Source: Verrucomicrobiaceae bacterium (GTDB taxonomy: Bacteria; Verrucomicrobiota; Verrucomicrobiia; Verrucomicrobiales; Verrucomicrobiaceae). From it: a stretch of DNA of 64,000 bases. The translations under genes and the position numbers were made by a program. Below are positions 42,790-50,962 of the stretch, piece after piece. Position 1 is the stretch's first letter, and each line of letters opens with the position of its first letter. The stretch is taken from contig CANGYJ010000002.1 of assembly GCA_947458455.1 (NCBI GenBank), positions 124,001-188,000 on the forward strand. The letters are read 5' to 3'. Below the pieces are notes generated by a model that saw only the letters and a list, made by a program, of their open reading frames with translations, made no database searches and had not been told where the DNA came from.

Positions 42790-43461
42790 TCAGCCTTTGC
42801 GGCGGACGGCAAAAGGCAGGTGGAGCAACGTGTAAACGGCCAGGCCAAGCGCCATCGCGGAGACATTGTGCCAGGGAACGGGGCCGAGATGATCGAACAG
42901 GCTGGCCTGCGGCGGCTTCTGGCATTGGAAAGCGTAGTTCGTGCCGAGCGTGAGATTCACCAGCGCCGTCACCGCATACCAGGCGAGCGAAAAGCTCATC
43001 ACCCGCCGCACCGCGCCCGCCTGCGGCCGCTGCCGCATGGCGCTGACGACGTAAAGCGAGGTCACCGGCACGCCGCCATGCATCACGAAGAACAGGAAGA
43101 AGCGTGGATCAGGAAAGTCATACACCAGCGCCGGGGTGAGCAGCCCCTGGAGCGTGCCGGCGATGCCGAAAAAGTACACCACCTCGCACCAAAACGCCCG
43201 CCGCGTCCAAAGAGCCAGCCCACCCGCGATCGTGGCAATGTCACAGTATTGTAGCGGCAGCATGGTCTGCGCCGTGAGGGAGCCGCACAGACCATGGACG
43301 ATGAGCCCAACGGGATACAGCGCGAGAAGCATCGTGCCGAGCGCCCGCTCCGCGAGGCTGGCGAAACGCGTGCGTGCCAGCACGAGCAGCGTGATCAGGA
43401 AGAGGCCCACCACAGCGAGCACGATTTGATGCGAGGTTCCCCAAGGATGAAATGAAGGCAT
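42790..43461 (-). CDS. TIGR02206/YwaF-like membrane protein
   Basis: 223 residues with about seven membrane helices. WGTSHQIVLAVVGLF at the start, LPLQYCDIATIAGGLALWTRR with conserved small polar residues, and YDFPDPRFFLFFVMHGGV are features of the TIGR02206/YwaF family. Function is unknown. ATG at 43461 or 43473 could be used. Confidence 0.82.
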   Translation of the reverse strand: MPSFHPWGTSHQIVLAVVGLFLITLLVLARTRFASLAERALGTMLLALYPVGLIVHGLCGSLTAQTMLPLQYCDIATIAGGLALWTRRAFWCEVVYFFGIAGTLQGLLTPALVYDFPDPRFFLFFVMHGGVPVTSLYVVSAMRQRPQAGAVRRVMSFSLAWYAVTALVNLTLGTNYAFQCQKPPQASLFDHLGPVPWHNVSAMALGLAVYTLLHLPFAVRRKG

Positions 43462-43529
43462 AGCGGGAGGCATGCGCGGAGAATACGCGGCTCTTGCGTG
43501 TGTCAGGCGCTTTGTGCGAGAGTCTGGGC

Positions 43530-45331: not shown

Positions 45332-46006
45332 ATGCGACTTCCACCACCTCTCTCGATTCCTTGGCTGGCGGTGATGCTCATGGGCGCATCCGCCCAGGCT
45401 CATCCGGCGGATCAAAGCGAGATGCAGGCGAAGCTTACGCCGCATGCGCTGGAGGTACGCTTCACCTTCAATCTGCTCACGGTGACCAAATGCGTGCGGG
45501 TGGATGCCGATGGCGATCAAAAGCTCAGTGTGGACGAGCTGAAGGCCGCGGAACCTGTTTTCACAAAGTACCTCAACGAGCACATCCACCTGGAGGTGAA
45601 TCAAAAACCGGTCGCCTGGGGTGAAAAAGCCGCGTTCAGCTACTTGTGGCCGAACTTCGCCAAAACACCGCCCATGCCGGAGATCGAGTATGCGGCGCGG
45701 AATGTGGATGTGACCTTCGTTTTGCCGCAGAAGGCGGTGCTGGAGGATTTCTGGATCGAATTCGCCTTCTTCGACCAAACCGGGCCGATGCAGACCATTC
45801 GCGGCGTGTATGAGCAGGACGGGCAGATCATGGAGGTGCCCTTCAGCTTTCAGGAGCCGGAGTACACGTATGATACCGGTTTCGCGGAGGATCCCTTTGT
45901 GCAGCAGGAGGAGGCCAAACGTGACGAAGGCTGGAGTTGGGCTTGGGTAGTCGTGCTCGGAGCACTGCTCATGGCTGGGCTGGCGTGGCGTTACGTGCGG
46001 CGATGA
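45332..46006 (+). CDS. Exported EF-hand protein with C-terminal anchor
   Basis: 224 residues. A signal peptide (WLAVMLMGASAQAHP) is followed by a beta-rich domain and an EF-hand loop DADGDQKLSVDE near residues 58-69, a predicted calcium site. The protein ends with one membrane helix (WAWVVVLGALLMAGLAWRYV). It begins 8 bp after the DUF3592 gene and its 3' end overlaps the convergent permease gene by 38 bp, so expression of the two may interfere. Confidence 0.77.
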   Translation: MRLPPPLSIPWLAVMLMGASAQAHPADQSEMQAKLTPHALEVRFTFNLLTVTKCVRVDADGDQKLSVDELKAAEPVFTKYLNEHIHLEVNQKPVAWGEKAAFSYLWPNFAKTPPMPEIEYAARNVDVTFVLPQKAVLEDFWIEFAFFDQTGPMQTIRGVYEQDGQIMEVPFSFQEPEYTYDTGFAEDPFVQQEEAKRDEGWSWAWVVVLGALLMAGLAWRYVRR

Positions 46007-47138
46007 ACTGCCACGCCATGCTCAGCAAATGCAGCACGAACGAGGCACCGAGAAGCACGAGGCCGGCGTTTAGGATGCGGGTGGGATCGGCGAGCGTTTG
46101 GGCGGCCTGGGCGGGCGTGGTGATCAACAGCGGTTGGAAGGTGCGCATGACGCCGCCAGTGAGCGGTTGCGGATGCAGCGTGGCGATGGCGGCCAGCCAC
46201 ACGACGAGCTGCGAGAGTGTCTCGAAGCTCCAAGAGGCCAGATGAAAGGTCTGCTGTGCTGTTGGCTGTCCGCGTAGCTTGGCAAAGCACAACGGAAAGC
46301 TTATCACGCCGATCACCAGCCACATGATGAGCCACAAAAACTGCTGTGAGGCGAGGCTTACACTCAGCGCCAGCACCCACAGCGGCCAGGGCAGCCAACT
46401 GATCGTGGCGAGAGGTCCCGCGCCGGTGCTTTGGTTCGCGGGCAAGGCATTCAGCAGCGTGCAAAACACCGCGGAGAGCCAGGCGATCATCGCCACCCCA
46501 GCGGCCACGTTCGCGGCTTCACCGGCGCGGATGGCCTGCGCCATCCAGCCGCCCCAGCCCATGAAGTGCAGCACATCCTCGATGAGGATCAGCCAGGCGA
46601 TGCCGTGCAGGCAGAGCGATTGCAAACGTGCTCGCAGCGGCTTGCCAACACCGCCGAGCACCTCGCCAAACAATGGCACGGCGAGCACCAGCGCGGGCGC
46701 GAGGTATTCCCAAAGCTCCGCGCCAAACATCAAGCGCCAGTCATTCAGTTCCGCGCCGAGCTGGAAGGGCATCAAGGTCTCCACCGGCTTGCCGAGCGCT
46801 CCGATCCACCAGCCCACGAGACTCCACGCGAGGGCCGTGACGGGAAAAAGGGCCACCGCACGTCCCAGCATGGCCACGATGCTCGTCACCACATGTCCGC
46901 CAGATTCCGCCAGCCATGAGAGCGTGTAGCCTGCGCTGGCTGAGGTGAGCAGAGCGATGGCGAAAACGATCGCGCTGCGTCCGCCGCGTGCGAGCAGAGC
47001 GGGATCGAAAAGCCCTGACCATGCGGCAAAGCAGCCCGCACCACCGCTCAGGGCGATCACGCATGCCGCGAGCATGCCACCGAGCACGATGCGCACCGGA
47101 AGCCAGCGTGGCGGATTCGGCAGGGCGGTGGAGATCAT
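45969..47138 (-). CDS. Divergent Opp/Dpp-type ABC permease-like protein
   Basis: 389 residues with nine or more hydrophobic segments. The middle follows the OppB/OppC plan: FAIALLTSASAGYTLSWLAES, a stretch ending WEYLAPALVLAVPLFGEVL, and ILIEDVLHFMGWGGWMAQAI, which matches the conserved vEtvF..pGlG region of dipeptide permeases. The usual EAA loop for ATPase docking is poorly conserved. Extra C-terminal helices extend beyond the family. It overlaps the upstream binding-protein gene by four bases (ATGA), so the two proteins probably form a complex. No ATPase gene is nearby. Confidence 0.62.
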   Translation of the reverse strand: MISTALPNPPRWLPVRIVLGGMLAACVIALSGGAGCFAAWSGLFDPALLARGGRSAIVFAIALLTSASAGYTLSWLAESGGHVVTSIVAMLGRAVALFPVTALAWSLVGWWIGALGKPVETLMPFQLGAELNDWRLMFGAELWEYLAPALVLAVPLFGEVLGGVGKPLRARLQSLCLHGIAWLILIEDVLHFMGWGGWMAQAIRAGEAANVAAGVAMIAWLSAVFCTLLNALPANQSTGAGPLATISWLPWPLWVLALSVSLASQQFLWLIMWLVIGVISFPLCFAKLRGQPTAQQTFHLASWSFETLSQLVVWLAAIATLHPQPLTGGVMRTFQPLLITTPAQAAQTLADPTRILNAGLVLLGASFVLHLLSMAWQFIAARNATPAQP

Positions 47139-50100
47139 TCGTCAGGCAGCTTCAATTCGAGCGTGGAGGGCGTGCGGGAAGGTGTTTTCGATTTGAAGGC
47201 CAGCTCGCGCAGCGTCCATGAGGTGCGTGGCTTGTTCGCCGCCAGCGTGGCATTCACGGCAGCATGATCGACGGTGTGAAAAAGCGGCAGCATGGCCTGC
47301 AGCGGCAGCAAACGGCCTTCGAGCTGCCTCACGCGTTCACCGGCTGCGGCGGGTTCAAACTCGGTGGCGAGTGCTTCGAGTAGCAAATCCGTCTGCGGGT
47401 CCGCGATGCCGGCGAAATTGGTTCCGCCCGGTTTGGCCTGCGAGGAGTGCCACCAGGGAAATTGATCCCACGAAACCTCGAACCTTTGTTCGAGCATCAC
47501 CGCGTCGAATTCACGGCTCGCGAGACGACCCGCGAGCAGATCAGCGGAGGCGAGCGTCTCCACGCGGATGCTCGCGCCGAGTTCACGCCACTGCGCGGCG
47601 AGTTGATGCGCCGTTTGCGAGACGACGGGATCACCGGCCACGAGCAGCAGGGCGAATTCAAATTTGTGCCCCGCGTTTCTTCCGATGCCATCCACACCCG
47701 GCAGCCAGCCAGCCTCGGCCAGCACACGTTTGGCTTTCGCGGCGCTCCACGGCACGCGTGGTGCCTTCGTGTGCAGCCACATGCCGGGTGGGAAGAGGCT
47801 GCCATCGGAGAGGGTATGCTTTCCCGGCAGCGCGGCAGTGATCGAGGCCACATCGGTGATCGTGGCCAGCGCCTCACGCGTGCGCACATCGGCCAGCACG
47901 GGGCTTTTCGTGTTCCAAAGCACCACGAGGCGGCGATGCGGTGGCGTGAGGCAGGCGAGGAGATCGTCATGGTTTCCCGCGATGGTTGCCGGCCACACGA
48001 GGTTCGTGGTTTTGGTGCCGAGGCCGACTTCCGTCATCAGCGGCGAGGCATTGAAGTGAAACAAAAAGCGCGGTGACTCCTGCTGCGTGCTCACCGGCGT
48101 GAGCGAGAGCGTGCGTGCATCGAGATGGGTGAGGCGGAACGAGCCTGCGCCAGGCGGCGGCGAGAGGGTGAAGGCCTTGTCATCATCCTGCTCATGCGCC
48201 TTCCACCATGAGGCGGGCAGCACCGGCAGACCCGCCCACACGCAGAGCGCGGGACCGTAGCGGCTGCGGAAGGTCACGCGGAGTTGGTTCCCGCCGTTTT
48301 GAATCTCCATGTCCTGGATGTGGCGCAGCGCCTCGCGGTTCGGCAGCAGCCACGGGCGGCGGCTCACCTGCTCGATGGTGGTCTTCACATCCCACGCGGT
48401 CACCGGCGTGCCATCATGCCAGGTTTGGCCTTGGCGCATGTCGAGATCGAGCACGGGCTCGCTGAGCGCGGAAACCTCGCCCATCAGGCTGATGCGCACC
48501 TCGGTGGGCACTCTCGCGGCGAGGTGGCTGCGAAACTCATCCAGCAAGCGCTGCGCCGGCCCGACGGTGACGATCTCAAAGACATTGTCGCGATCAAACC
48601 ACATGCGGCGGATCTGCTTGGCGAGCGGCGAGCTGTTGAAAAAGCTCGCCGCGAGCTCTTTGAGCGGCTGCTGGCATTCGATGCGCCAGAAGGCGACGGT
48701 TTGCGGCTGGAGATCGCCGATGACTTCGAGCGCTTTCGGGGTGCCAGCGTGTGTGGCGTCATTGAAATTGAGCACGAGGCTGTTTGCCGCGAGGCGCACG
48801 GCACTCAGCCGCCATTCCGCCCAGCGATTGCTCTCGCCGATTTGTGCCTGAAGACGCTCCTGCGCCTGCTTCGCGATCTTTTCATCGGCAAACCAGCACG
48901 TCACATCCTGCGACCAGCGCCATAGCTCGGCGAGCGCGGGTTGCAGCGTGCCATCACCTCCCACGCGCATGAGCGGCTCGTGGACGAGATCAATGATCTG
49001 CCGCTCCGCCTCCGTGCGTGGCGCGTAGGGATGCATCGCGGGCTTTGGATCGCTGAGCATGGCCACCACGCCCTCACCGCGCATCGCCCGCACCGTGCGT
49101 GATTGCTCGGAGGCCCATGAGGCCAGCCCGAGCACCGCGAAGGGCACGAGCATCAAAAACAAACGCAGCGTGATGGTGGTGCGGGAGGTCTGCGGTTTGA
49201 GCGTGTGCGTTTCGCTCTCCTGCTTTTCCACGACGAGCTTGGATTGAGCGACCTCGAGCTGCGAGCGAACCTCCGAGAGCTCGGCTTTCTCCTCCTCCAG
49301 CGTGCGGCGGGCGGAGGTGAGTTGCTCTTCTGCGGTGGTGAGCTTTCGCTTGAGATCACGAAGAGAGGTCTCGATCTTGCTTTGTTGATTTGCCCGATCG
49401 TTTTCAGCGACTTCGAGGTCTTTTTGAACCTGCTTGAGCTGCGTGGTTTTGGCGGTGAGATCGGCTTCAAGGCTGGCGAGGCTCGTGGAATGCTCTTTCT
49501 GCTTCTGCGAGGTTTTCAGCTCGAGATCACGAAGACGGGCGGTGGCCTCATTTTCGCGGGCTTGAAGCTCATCGAGGCGTTTTTGAGCGGCTTGAAGGCC
49601 GGTCGTTTTTTGATCGTACTGCGAGTTGAGGGCATCGAGAGCGACTTGGCGTTCTTTTTGCCAGGCTTCGGACTTCGCCGCCGCTGCTTGAAGCTTCGAA
49701 AGGGATTCCTCCGCGATGCGGGCCTGATCGCGGAGCTTCGCGGATTCCGAGCGTGCGGCATCCAACTCACGGCGAGCGGCTTCCGCTTGCGCTGTATCTT
49801 CGGCTTTGCGCTTGGAAAGGGCCTCCAGGAGCTGCTGAGCTTCCGCTGCCTCGCTCGTGATCTTCGCTAGTGATGCGGTCTTTTGCTCCTGCTGGGCGGA
49901 GAGCATGGCGATGACCTGCTCAGTTTTGACCGTGGTGTCTTGCAGGCGGTTCAGCGTCTCCTGGCTGATGCGGATCTGGCCTTCGTGCTGTTTGAGGGCT
50001 GTTTGGCGCTCCTGCAGCTGCGCTTCCGATTTGCTGAGCTGCTGTCGAAGGGCATCGAGGCGTGCGTTTTCCTGCGCGGTGGCCTCGCGAGTCTGCTGGA

Positions 50101-50962
50101 GATGCTTTTCTTCCTCGGCGTGAAGCGCGGTGAGTTGATCGAGCTTGGATTGAGCGGCCTGGGCTTCGCCGGTGAACTGATCGAGTCGATTTTGTGCCTT
50201 GGCGGTGGCGGCGGCGAGGAGATCAAAGCTGGCCTGAGCTTTGGCGGCGTCTGCTTTGATCTGATCGAGCTTGGATTTAGCGGTGGAAGTTTCCGCTGTG
50301 AGCTGGCTGAGCTTCGTTTCAGCTTCGGTGGTAGCGGTCGTGAGCTGCTCGAGCTTTGACTGAGCGGTGGAGGCCTGGATGGTGAGCTGAGTGAGCTTGG
50401 ATTGAGCTTCGACGGCGCTGGCGTTGAGCTGGTCTAGCTTTGACTGAGCGGCGGAGGTCTGAGTGGTGAGTTGATCGAGCTTGGCTTTTGCCTTGGCAGC
50501 GTCTGTGGTGAGCTGGGTGAGCTTCGCTTGAGCCTTATCGCCCTCGGCGGTGAGTTGATCGAGTTCGGCGGCTTTCGCGGCGTGGCTGGCTTTGATGGCA
50601 TCCAGTGCAGCCTGGGCTTCACGCTGGGCGGTGTCGTTGCGGAGAGGGATGCGGGTGGTGACGGTGGTCGGGGCTTTTTTGAGACGGAAGACGACATGCA
50701 GCGGACCGAAGGAGAGGCGATCTCCATCCCGAAGGATCTGGCTGTTCACCCGCTGGTTATTGATGAAGGTGCCGGTGCGGGAACCGCGATCCCGCACCTC
50801 GGCGGTGCCATCGGCATGCAGAATGATCTCGCCATGATGGCGGGACATCTCGGCGTCATCGACGATGACGTTGTTGTCCTCCGCCCGGCCGATGGTGAGG
50901 CGCTCAGGACCGGAGAATGCCATCTCTTGTCCGTCTTCAAAGATGATGGTGGGGGTGGCCAT
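47135..50962 (-). CDS. FHA-coiled coil-TM-SBP_bac_5 fusion protein, 1275 aa
   Basis: Four parts are visible. Residues 5-93 are an FHA domain (TIGRAEDNNVIVDD, MSRHHGEI, GSRTGTFINNQ), which binds phosphothreonine peptides. Residues 112-585 are a long coiled coil; 133-286 consist of eleven 14-residue repeats of the type KLDQLTTQTSAAQS. Residues 597-616 form one membrane helix. From about 645 to 1265 lies a peptide-binding domain of the SBP_bac_5 family (LVHEPLMRVGGDGTLQPALAE, WHDGTPVTAWDV, WHSSQAKPGGTNFAGIADPQTD). FHA and coiled coil would be cytoplasmic and the binding domain periplasmic. The permease gene follows with a four-base overlap. I know of no described protein with this order; signalling or division-site transport are open guesses. 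Confidence 0.88.
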   Translation of the reverse strand: MATPTIIFEDGQEMAFSGPERLTIGRAEDNNVIVDDAEMSRHHGEIILHADGTAEVRDRGSRTGTFINNQRVNSQILRDGDRLSFGPLHVVFRLKKAPTTVTTRIPLRNDTAQREAQAALDAIKASHAAKAAELDQLTAEGDKAQAKLTQLTTDAAKAKAKLDQLTTQTSAAQSKLDQLNASAVEAQSKLTQLTIQASTAQSKLEQLTTATTEAETKLSQLTAETSTAKSKLDQIKADAAKAQASFDLLAAATAKAQNRLDQFTGEAQAAQSKLDQLTALHAEEEKHLQQTREATAQENARLDALRQQLSKSEAQLQERQTALKQHEGQIRISQETLNRLQDTTVKTEQVIAMLSAQQEQKTASLAKITSEAAEAQQLLEALSKRKAEDTAQAEAARRELDAARSESAKLRDQARIAEESLSKLQAAAAKSEAWQKERQVALDALNSQYDQKTTGLQAAQKRLDELQARENEATARLRDLELKTSQKQKEHSTSLASLEADLTAKTTQLKQVQKDLEVAENDRANQQSKIETSLRDLKRKLTTAEEQLTSARRTLEEEKAELSEVRSQLEVAQSKLVVEKQESETHTLKPQTSRTTITLRLFLMLVPFAVLGLASWASEQSRTVRAMRGEGVVAMLSDPKPAMHPYAPRTEAERQIIDLVHEPLMRVGGDGTLQPALAELWRWSQDVTCWFADEKIAKQAQERLQAQIGESNRWAEWRLSAVRLAANSLVLNFNDATHAGTPKALEVIGDLQPQTVAFWRIECQQPLKELAASFFNSSPLAKQIRRMWFDRDNVFEIVTVGPAQRLLDEFRSHLAARVPTEVRISLMGEVSALSEPVLDLDMRQGQTWHDGTPVTAWDVKTTIEQVSRRPWLLPNREALRHIQDMEIQNGGNQLRVTFRSRYGPALCVWAGLPVLPASWWKAHEQDDDKAFTLSPPPGAGSFRLTHLDARTLSLTPVSTQQESPRFLFHFNASPLMTEVGLGTKTTNLVWPATIAGNHDDLLACLTPPHRRLVVLWNTKSPVLADVRTREALATITDVASITAALPGKHTLSDGSLFPPGMWLHTKAPRVPWSAAKAKRVLAEAGWLPGVDGIGRNAGHKFEFALLLVAGDPVVSQTAHQLAAQWRELGASIRVETLASADLLAGRLASREFDAVMLEQRFEVSWDQFPWWHSSQAKPGGTNFAGIADPQTDLLLEALATEFEPAAAGERVRQLEGRLLPLQAMLPLFHTVDHAAVNATLAANKPRTSWTLRELAFKSKTPSRTPSTLELKLPDE
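50105..50566 (-). repeat. Eleven 42-bp coding repeats (14-aa coiled-coil units)
   Basis: The segment codes eleven successive 14-residue units with the pattern KLxQLTxxxxxAxx. They are degenerate at DNA level and in frame throughout, as expected for a coiled coil that grew by duplication. Not a CRISPR array: there are no spacers. Confidence 0.85.

Follow-up and report, generated by a model that had tools for sequence, protein, structure and literature searches.

A gene pair in the 64-kb window analyzed here (the whole stretch under study, G000:C2:124001-188000, where G000 is the 5.35-Mb Verrucomicrobiaceae genome that contains it) encodes P0001, in which an FHA domain, a long coiled coil, a membrane helix and a family-5 solute-binding protein form one polypeptide, and P0002, an eroded relative of the OppB-OppC permeases of peptide importers. 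Comparison across relatives shows that the gain of the FHA-coil segment ahead of a membrane anchor and the loss of both EAA loops of the permease map to one clade. These changes are read, with moderate confidence, as those of a peptide importer that may have been cut off from its ATPase and converted into a transmembrane receptor or anchor whose output is phosphothreonine binding. What is new here, as judged from sequence comparison, is that the fusion permeases have lost both EAA loops yet show ratios of non-synonymous to synonymous substitution rates (dN/dS) like those of loop-bearing permeases.

A four-part protein in one clade

The reading frame of P0001 opens with an ATG at 50962 and closes with a stop codon at 47135-47137, and the four bases ATGA are shared by this stop and the start of P0002 (ATG at 47138), confirming an overlap reported in an earlier sequence-only reading of the DNA. 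The domain order given in that reading (FHA, a coil of 14-residue repeats, one membrane helix, SBP_bac_5) agrees with Pfam, with solved structures and with the periodicity of the coil. Pfam finds the FHA domain (E 1.6e-17, 64.1 bits against a cut-off of 20.7) and, in two stretches of the C-terminal half, SBP_bac_5 (E 1.6e-28, exceeding the curated cut-off); neither a TonB domain nor ABC_tran was found by Pfam in P0001. A sequence search of solved structures returned AppA for the C-terminal half (1.3e-13), and for the N-terminus the FHA domain of Rv1747 (best, 3.4e-12) and OdhI/GarA (1.7e-8). Autocorrelation of identity along the coil peaks at 14, 42, 28 and 56 residues, nine KLxQL-type motifs are spaced at multiples of 14 between residues 147 and 273, and the only hydrophobic stretch of the protein begins at about residue 595.

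A fusion frame of 1233-1327 amino acids is present in five of 48 genomes of the genus, G000 included. The unfused binding protein occurs in 32 of the 48, with frames of 422-725 amino acids (the shortest at contig ends) whose match begins at P0001 residue 584-602, or at 702 in one cut copy. The other 11 genomes have no match to P0001 at E 1e-100; six of them match more weakly but clearly (E 7e-51 to 4e-96), three match very weakly and two do not match at all. Because the fusion is open in five genomes that form a single clade (support 100/100), it is not an assembly error, and the concern that two genes had been joined by a sequencing error can be put aside. The unfused proteins start with a short anchor that aligns to the membrane helix of P0001 (15 compared), and therefore the FHA-coil segment was added ahead of the anchor, a placement that would put the FHA domain in the cytoplasm and the binding domain in the periplasm.

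Other fusions and one possible source of this fusion were considered and rejected. Long stop-to-stop frames elsewhere in the class (L136-L139) give proteins of 700, 711, 1033 and 686 amino acids when read from the first start codon, and the binding protein of 1033 amino acids (L138) is taken to have an over-extended start; an FHA query matched no frame in six loci from other families of the class. Since P0001 and the free FHA-coil gene of locus L085 each have a PQQ-repeat gene as neighbor, duplication of an FHA-coil and PQQ gene pair was considered as the origin of the fusion, but the two are only 29% identical and the fusion locus L008 has no PQQ neighbor. PADLOC assigned P0001 and P0002 to none of its anti-phage defence families.

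Descent of the permease and loss of its EAA loops

P0002 is missed by Pfam and by a PF00528 (BPD_transp_1) scan of the genome. Direct matches of the fusion permeases to OppB and OppC are weak, and the kinship of P0002 with permeases therefore depends on a series of profile comparisons, leading from one group of relatives to the next. The fusion permeases match those of the unfused sister clade at 100% (E 1.7e-66) and those of other genera at 99.7%; the other-genus permeases match OppB at 89.7% and OppC at 97.5%, and the sister permeases match OppB at 44.6% and OppC at 5.2%. By this chain of profile matches, P0002 appears to descend from a fused OppB-OppC permease. The earlier label "permease-like" thus survives as a statement of descent, though not as one that Pfam or the PF00528 scan can detect.

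The ancestral arrangement is visible in other families of the class, where genes for the binding protein, OppB, OppC and an OppD-like ATPase are consecutive in four of six regions; in the other two (L136, L139), the queries matched the binding protein only. Within the family, the permease is a single fused polypeptide, with a length of 522-565 amino acids in other genera (six loci), 435-471 among the unfused sisters, 384-396 among the fusion permeases and 302-321 in another clade of the genus (four members). Two BPD_transp_1 stretches are still detectable in L077, from another genus, and L081 and L082 have BPD_transp_1 permeases, though without a match to P0002. Comparison therefore shows a permease that, to judge from gene order and length, fused and shrank from the order binding protein - OppB - OppC - OppD of distant relatives.

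Loop lengths were counted as residues between fixed anchors in 33 permeases. This set omits additional loci from a genome already represented, the incomplete L063, L064 and L067, and also L065, L068 and L070, which are truncated copies of L077, L079 and L086. The EAA loops were recognized in a profile alignment with OppB and OppC. For the first cytoplasmic loop, where relatives have the EAA motif, the count is 43 residues in all 17 sisters, 44-45 in all seven other-genus permeases and 10 in all five fusion permeases. The second loop has 52 residues in the 24 unfused sister and other-genus permeases and 29 in the five fusion permeases. In E. coli DppBCDF, each contact between a transmembrane domain and a nucleotide-binding domain is made by an EAA helix (PMC12136057). 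With both EAA loops absent, P0002 lacks the known docking sites for an ATPase, and what had been called a "degenerate" permease can be described more specifically as one that has lost both docking loops in all five fusion genomes. In a tree of 37 rows (L063, L064 and L067 dropped; "EAA2" assigned by permease length; L081 and L082 labeled as lacking a permease on account of their missing match to P0002), the fusion clade is sister to a loop-bearing clade of 17 members, which places the gain of FHA and the loss of both loops on one and the same branch.

Pairwise dN/dS of the permease is 0.16-0.29 in six fusion pairs versus 0.18-0.33 in nine loop-bearing sister pairs, the pair L077-L066 being saturated and the pair of the window and L008 reaching 0.31 under a slightly different alignment. 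For the binding protein, the values are 0.04-0.19 in fusion pairs versus 0.11-0.23 in sister pairs. By these ratios, P0002 is not decaying freely, and purifying selection continues on receptor and permease. Within the fusion protein, the coil is most variable (0.31-0.41), and the FHA domain has values of 0.09-0.15.

Features of the fusion locus, in window positions
Feature	Position	Strand	Remark
P0001: FHA - coiled coil - membrane helix - solute-binding protein	47135..50962	-	1275 amino acids; open in 5 genomes
FHA domain, residues 23-86	50705..50896	-	Pfam; G, R, S, H kept 5/5; canonical Asn replaced by Thr/Ser 5/5
Coiled coil, about residues 114-590, fast evolving, length variable	49193..50623	-	
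14-residue repeats, residues 147-277	50132..50524	-	
Single membrane helix, about residues 595-617, fusion joint	49112..49180	-	aligned with the anchor at the N-terminus of unfused relatives
Solute-binding protein, family 5, about residues 638-1275	47138..49051	-	Pfam and solved-structure search
Insert of ~140 residues in solute-binding protein, about residues 686-826	48485..48907	-	
P0002: eroded OppB-OppC-type permease (by profile chain), 389 amino acids	45969..47138	-	
First EAA loop missing	46632..46661	-	10 residues left
Second EAA loop missing	46233..46319	-	29 residues left
Rearrangement edge	46020..46029	.	DNA homology to L010 and L007 fusion loci ends here

The insert in the binding domain had no match in Pfam. 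By eye it is also present in the distant relative L081, and a low-confidence structure model hints at alpha-beta plaits within it. Elsewhere in the window, a bacterial member of the TMEM164 family is encoded at 42790-43473 on the minus strand (E 4e-37).

A detached ATPase and candidate kinase partners

The ATPase gene was sought in the window and in 24 loci, two of which (L008 and L084) belong to one genome. An OppD-like gene lies downstream in 23 of the 24, in all 22 other genomes, the exception being the free FHA-coil locus L085; it is cut by a contig end in L079 and is only 35-39% identical in L081 and L082. The 64-kb window has no cognate ATPase gene (best match 27%), and in this respect the earlier statement that no ATPase is present describes the neighborhood correctly. 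It does not extend to the genome, where an orthologue, an ATP-binding cassette of OppD/YejF type, is found about 245 kb away (G000:C2:415615-416475), 93% identical to the gene of L010; the next two genes share 93% and 88% identity with genes behind the L010 ATPase. DNA homology to L010 stops at window position 46029 and resumes at G000:C2:415583, in locus L119 (G000:C2:405000-424000), and about 30 bases of L010 fall between the two edges. The simplest reading is that one rearrangement broke the operon apart between its permease and ATPase genes. At this edge, the final residues of P0002 are unlike those of its relatives.

The ATPase has remained intact: five motifs, searched as patterns, are preserved in all five fusion genomes, and its dN/dS is 0.06-0.09. 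The genes called in the 16 kb around two OppBC pairs of this genome (L129, L130) include no Opp-type ATPase, as is also the case near four OppB-type loci of two relatives (L132-L135, 9-16 kb each); this genome has in addition a complete Opp set and a solitary OppF-like gene. This distribution suggests that ATPases may be shared among permeases in the genus, and sharing would account for the intact state of the OppD-type gene. For sugar importers, multitask ATPases have been described (PMC7658222).

The same evidence is the basis of the main rival explanation, in which P0001 is still the receptor of an importer. The tethered binding domain would feed intact OppBC permeases that use the shared OppD ATPase, the FHA-coil segment would place or regulate it, and P0002 would be an accessory. 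The conserved ATPase and the OppBC pairs that have none nearby both suit this explanation, as does locus L090, where the ATPase gene directly follows the binding-protein gene with no permease between them and a genuine OppBC pair lies about 5 kb off. Delivery to other permeases is held to be possible rather than probable; it leaves unexplained why a loop-less P0002 is under purifying selection and ATGA-coupled to the receptor gene. If instead the importer became a receptor or anchor, the conserved ATPase may persist by energizing other OppBC pairs that lack their own.

A phosphothreonine-binding output would depend on the FHA domain, in which G25, R26, S40 and H43 are kept in all five fusions; these residues and a fifth, Asn, are the canonical binding positions. 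FHA-coil proteins without a membrane helix are found throughout the genus, since 61 of 66 genomes, this one included, match the free copy of this genome, with many of the 61 matching through the FHA domain alone. Pairs of tandem FHA-coiled coil genes, coding for about 540-580 and 800-880 amino acids, were seen in three loci of the unfused sister clade (L120, L124 and L126), flanked by a DNA glycosylase/helicase pair on one side and an ABC1-kinase gene on the other. This ABC1 atypical-kinase gene is next to the FHA pair in L126 and, as judged by similarity, to FHA genes of L120, L124 and L125; among ten proteins tested beside free FHA-coil genes, none was a PF00069 kinase.

The genome has 20 matches to PF00069 (Pkinase), two of them below the cut-off. 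One kinase is near the ATPase: a protein with Pkinase and receiver domains is encoded on the other strand, about 2 to 4.4 kb past the ATPase gene, in three of five fusion genomes (L119:15862-17190, L010:15703-17103, and L007, where only its end is present, at the contig edge). It is absent from the examined loci of L008 and L009, two unfused loci have weaker kinase matches in their vicinity (L071, 43%; L077, 33%), and in this genome the gene adjoins the relocated ATPase, not the fusion gene. The synteny with kinases sought as a check on the sequence-only reading is thus weak, and the Pkinase-receiver protein is a weakly linked candidate for the FHA partner.

Weighing the explanations against known systems

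Under the preferred reading, the periplasmic domain would bind a peptide-like ligand, P0002 would remain the membrane partner of the receptor but would not carry out transport driven by ATP, and the FHA domain in the cytoplasm would recruit a phosphothreonine protein to the receptor-P0002 complex, the outcome being ligand-dependent signaling or positioning. Ligand sensing across the membrane would fit this arrangement. More tentatively, periplasmic ligand occupancy could be read out by Ser/Thr-kinase signaling and not by transport, which would be a novel path by which a bacterium can arrive at a transmembrane receptor. In agreement with the earlier statement that no such system is described, a fusion of FHA with a substrate- or solute-binding protein was not described in the papers searched, subscription papers being mostly outside their coverage; a search for Verrucomicrobia with FHA domain and serine threonine kinase returned nothing, and the one paper found to pair SBP_bac_5 with FHA is, to judge from its title, unrelated.

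Several observations weigh against an importer turned receptor. Compared directly, the fusion permeases match OppB at 1.6% and OppC at 0.2%. AlphaFold2 models from five sequences each (the window and L007-L010) are unreliable, with a predicted local distance difference test score of 38 for P0002 and 42 for the binding domain, and give no structural support; Foldseek with the poor binding-domain model ranks family-5 binding proteins at the top, LpqW among the matches, at query TM-scores of 0.12-0.17, which is consistent with the assignment but is not evidence for it. The canonical Asn of the FHA domain is Thr or Ser in every fusion, and the ATPase gene still adjoins the permease in the other four fusion genomes. 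Erosion of the permease also needs no FHA domain, since it occurred in an FHA-less lineage: in the other clade of the genus, the first loop is absent in all four short permeases, three keep a second EAA-like stretch and one has lost both loops, and the binding-protein genes of L069 (G045:C162) and L090 (G007:C6) have no directly adjoining permease. By this comparison, loss of coupling is a repeated trend. Permease dN relative to receptor dN is 1.6-3.9 in fusion pairs versus 1.0-1.8 in sister pairs, partly because the receptor changes less in the fusion pairs, and some relaxation of constraint on P0002 is possible.

An envelope scaffold of GltG or YscD type is unlikely. In such a scaffold, FHA, coil and helix would tie a cytoplasmic assembly to the periplasm, where the binding fold would recognize wall peptides or protein. 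The NCBIfam model for GltG does match the FHA-coil region at 44.6 bits, the FHA region passes the threshold set for the YscD-family cytoplasmic domain, and Myxococcus GltG is listed as a predicted transmembrane protein with FHA and TonB domains (PMC3169522). However, the match is below the GltG equivalog cut-off of 650 bits, P0001 has no TonB domain in Pfam, and across four comparisons identity is higher in the receptor half than in the FHA half (74-92% versus 75-81%), with the exception of L008 (74% versus 80%). Neutral decay, with a dying permease and an accidental fusion, is very improbable: the eroded permease of a second lineage, the higher relative permease dN in fusion pairs and the split operon of this genome would suit it, but P0002 has a dN/dS well below 1 and inside the range of loop-bearing relatives, and the frames are open in all five genomes.

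If the receptor reading is borne out, this system would exemplify the conversion of an ATP-driven importer into a receptor, the Ser/Thr kinase networks of these bacteria would have a defined input from outside the cytoplasm, and the retention of a "permease" gene would be no guarantee of transport. Because loop-bearing, loop-less and permease-less versions coexist in one genus, the order of steps is testable.

Family-5 binding folds that serve regulation and not uptake include LpqW and SgrR, neither of which is known to be an FHA-coiled coil-membrane fusion. GltG of the Myxococcus gliding machinery resembles P0001 in its N-terminal FHA domain on a predicted transmembrane protein (PMC3169522), but it ends in TonB where P0001 has a solute-binding protein, and the partners differ. 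Rv1747 likewise joins an FHA domain to ABC-transporter parts; this domain is described as binding a phosphothreonine partner and the protein as a putative exporter (PMC5549992), whereas here the FHA domain belongs to the periplasmic binding protein of a system of importer type and P0001 has no ATP-binding cassette. The Opp/Dpp importers (DppABCDF, YejABEF) share with this system a family-5 binding protein, an OppB-OppC-derived permease (by the profile chain) and an OppD/YejF-like ATPase in the ancestral order; unlike them, this system has its receptor fused to an FHA-coil segment, its permease as a single polypeptide without EAA loops and, in this genome, its ATPase gene detached.

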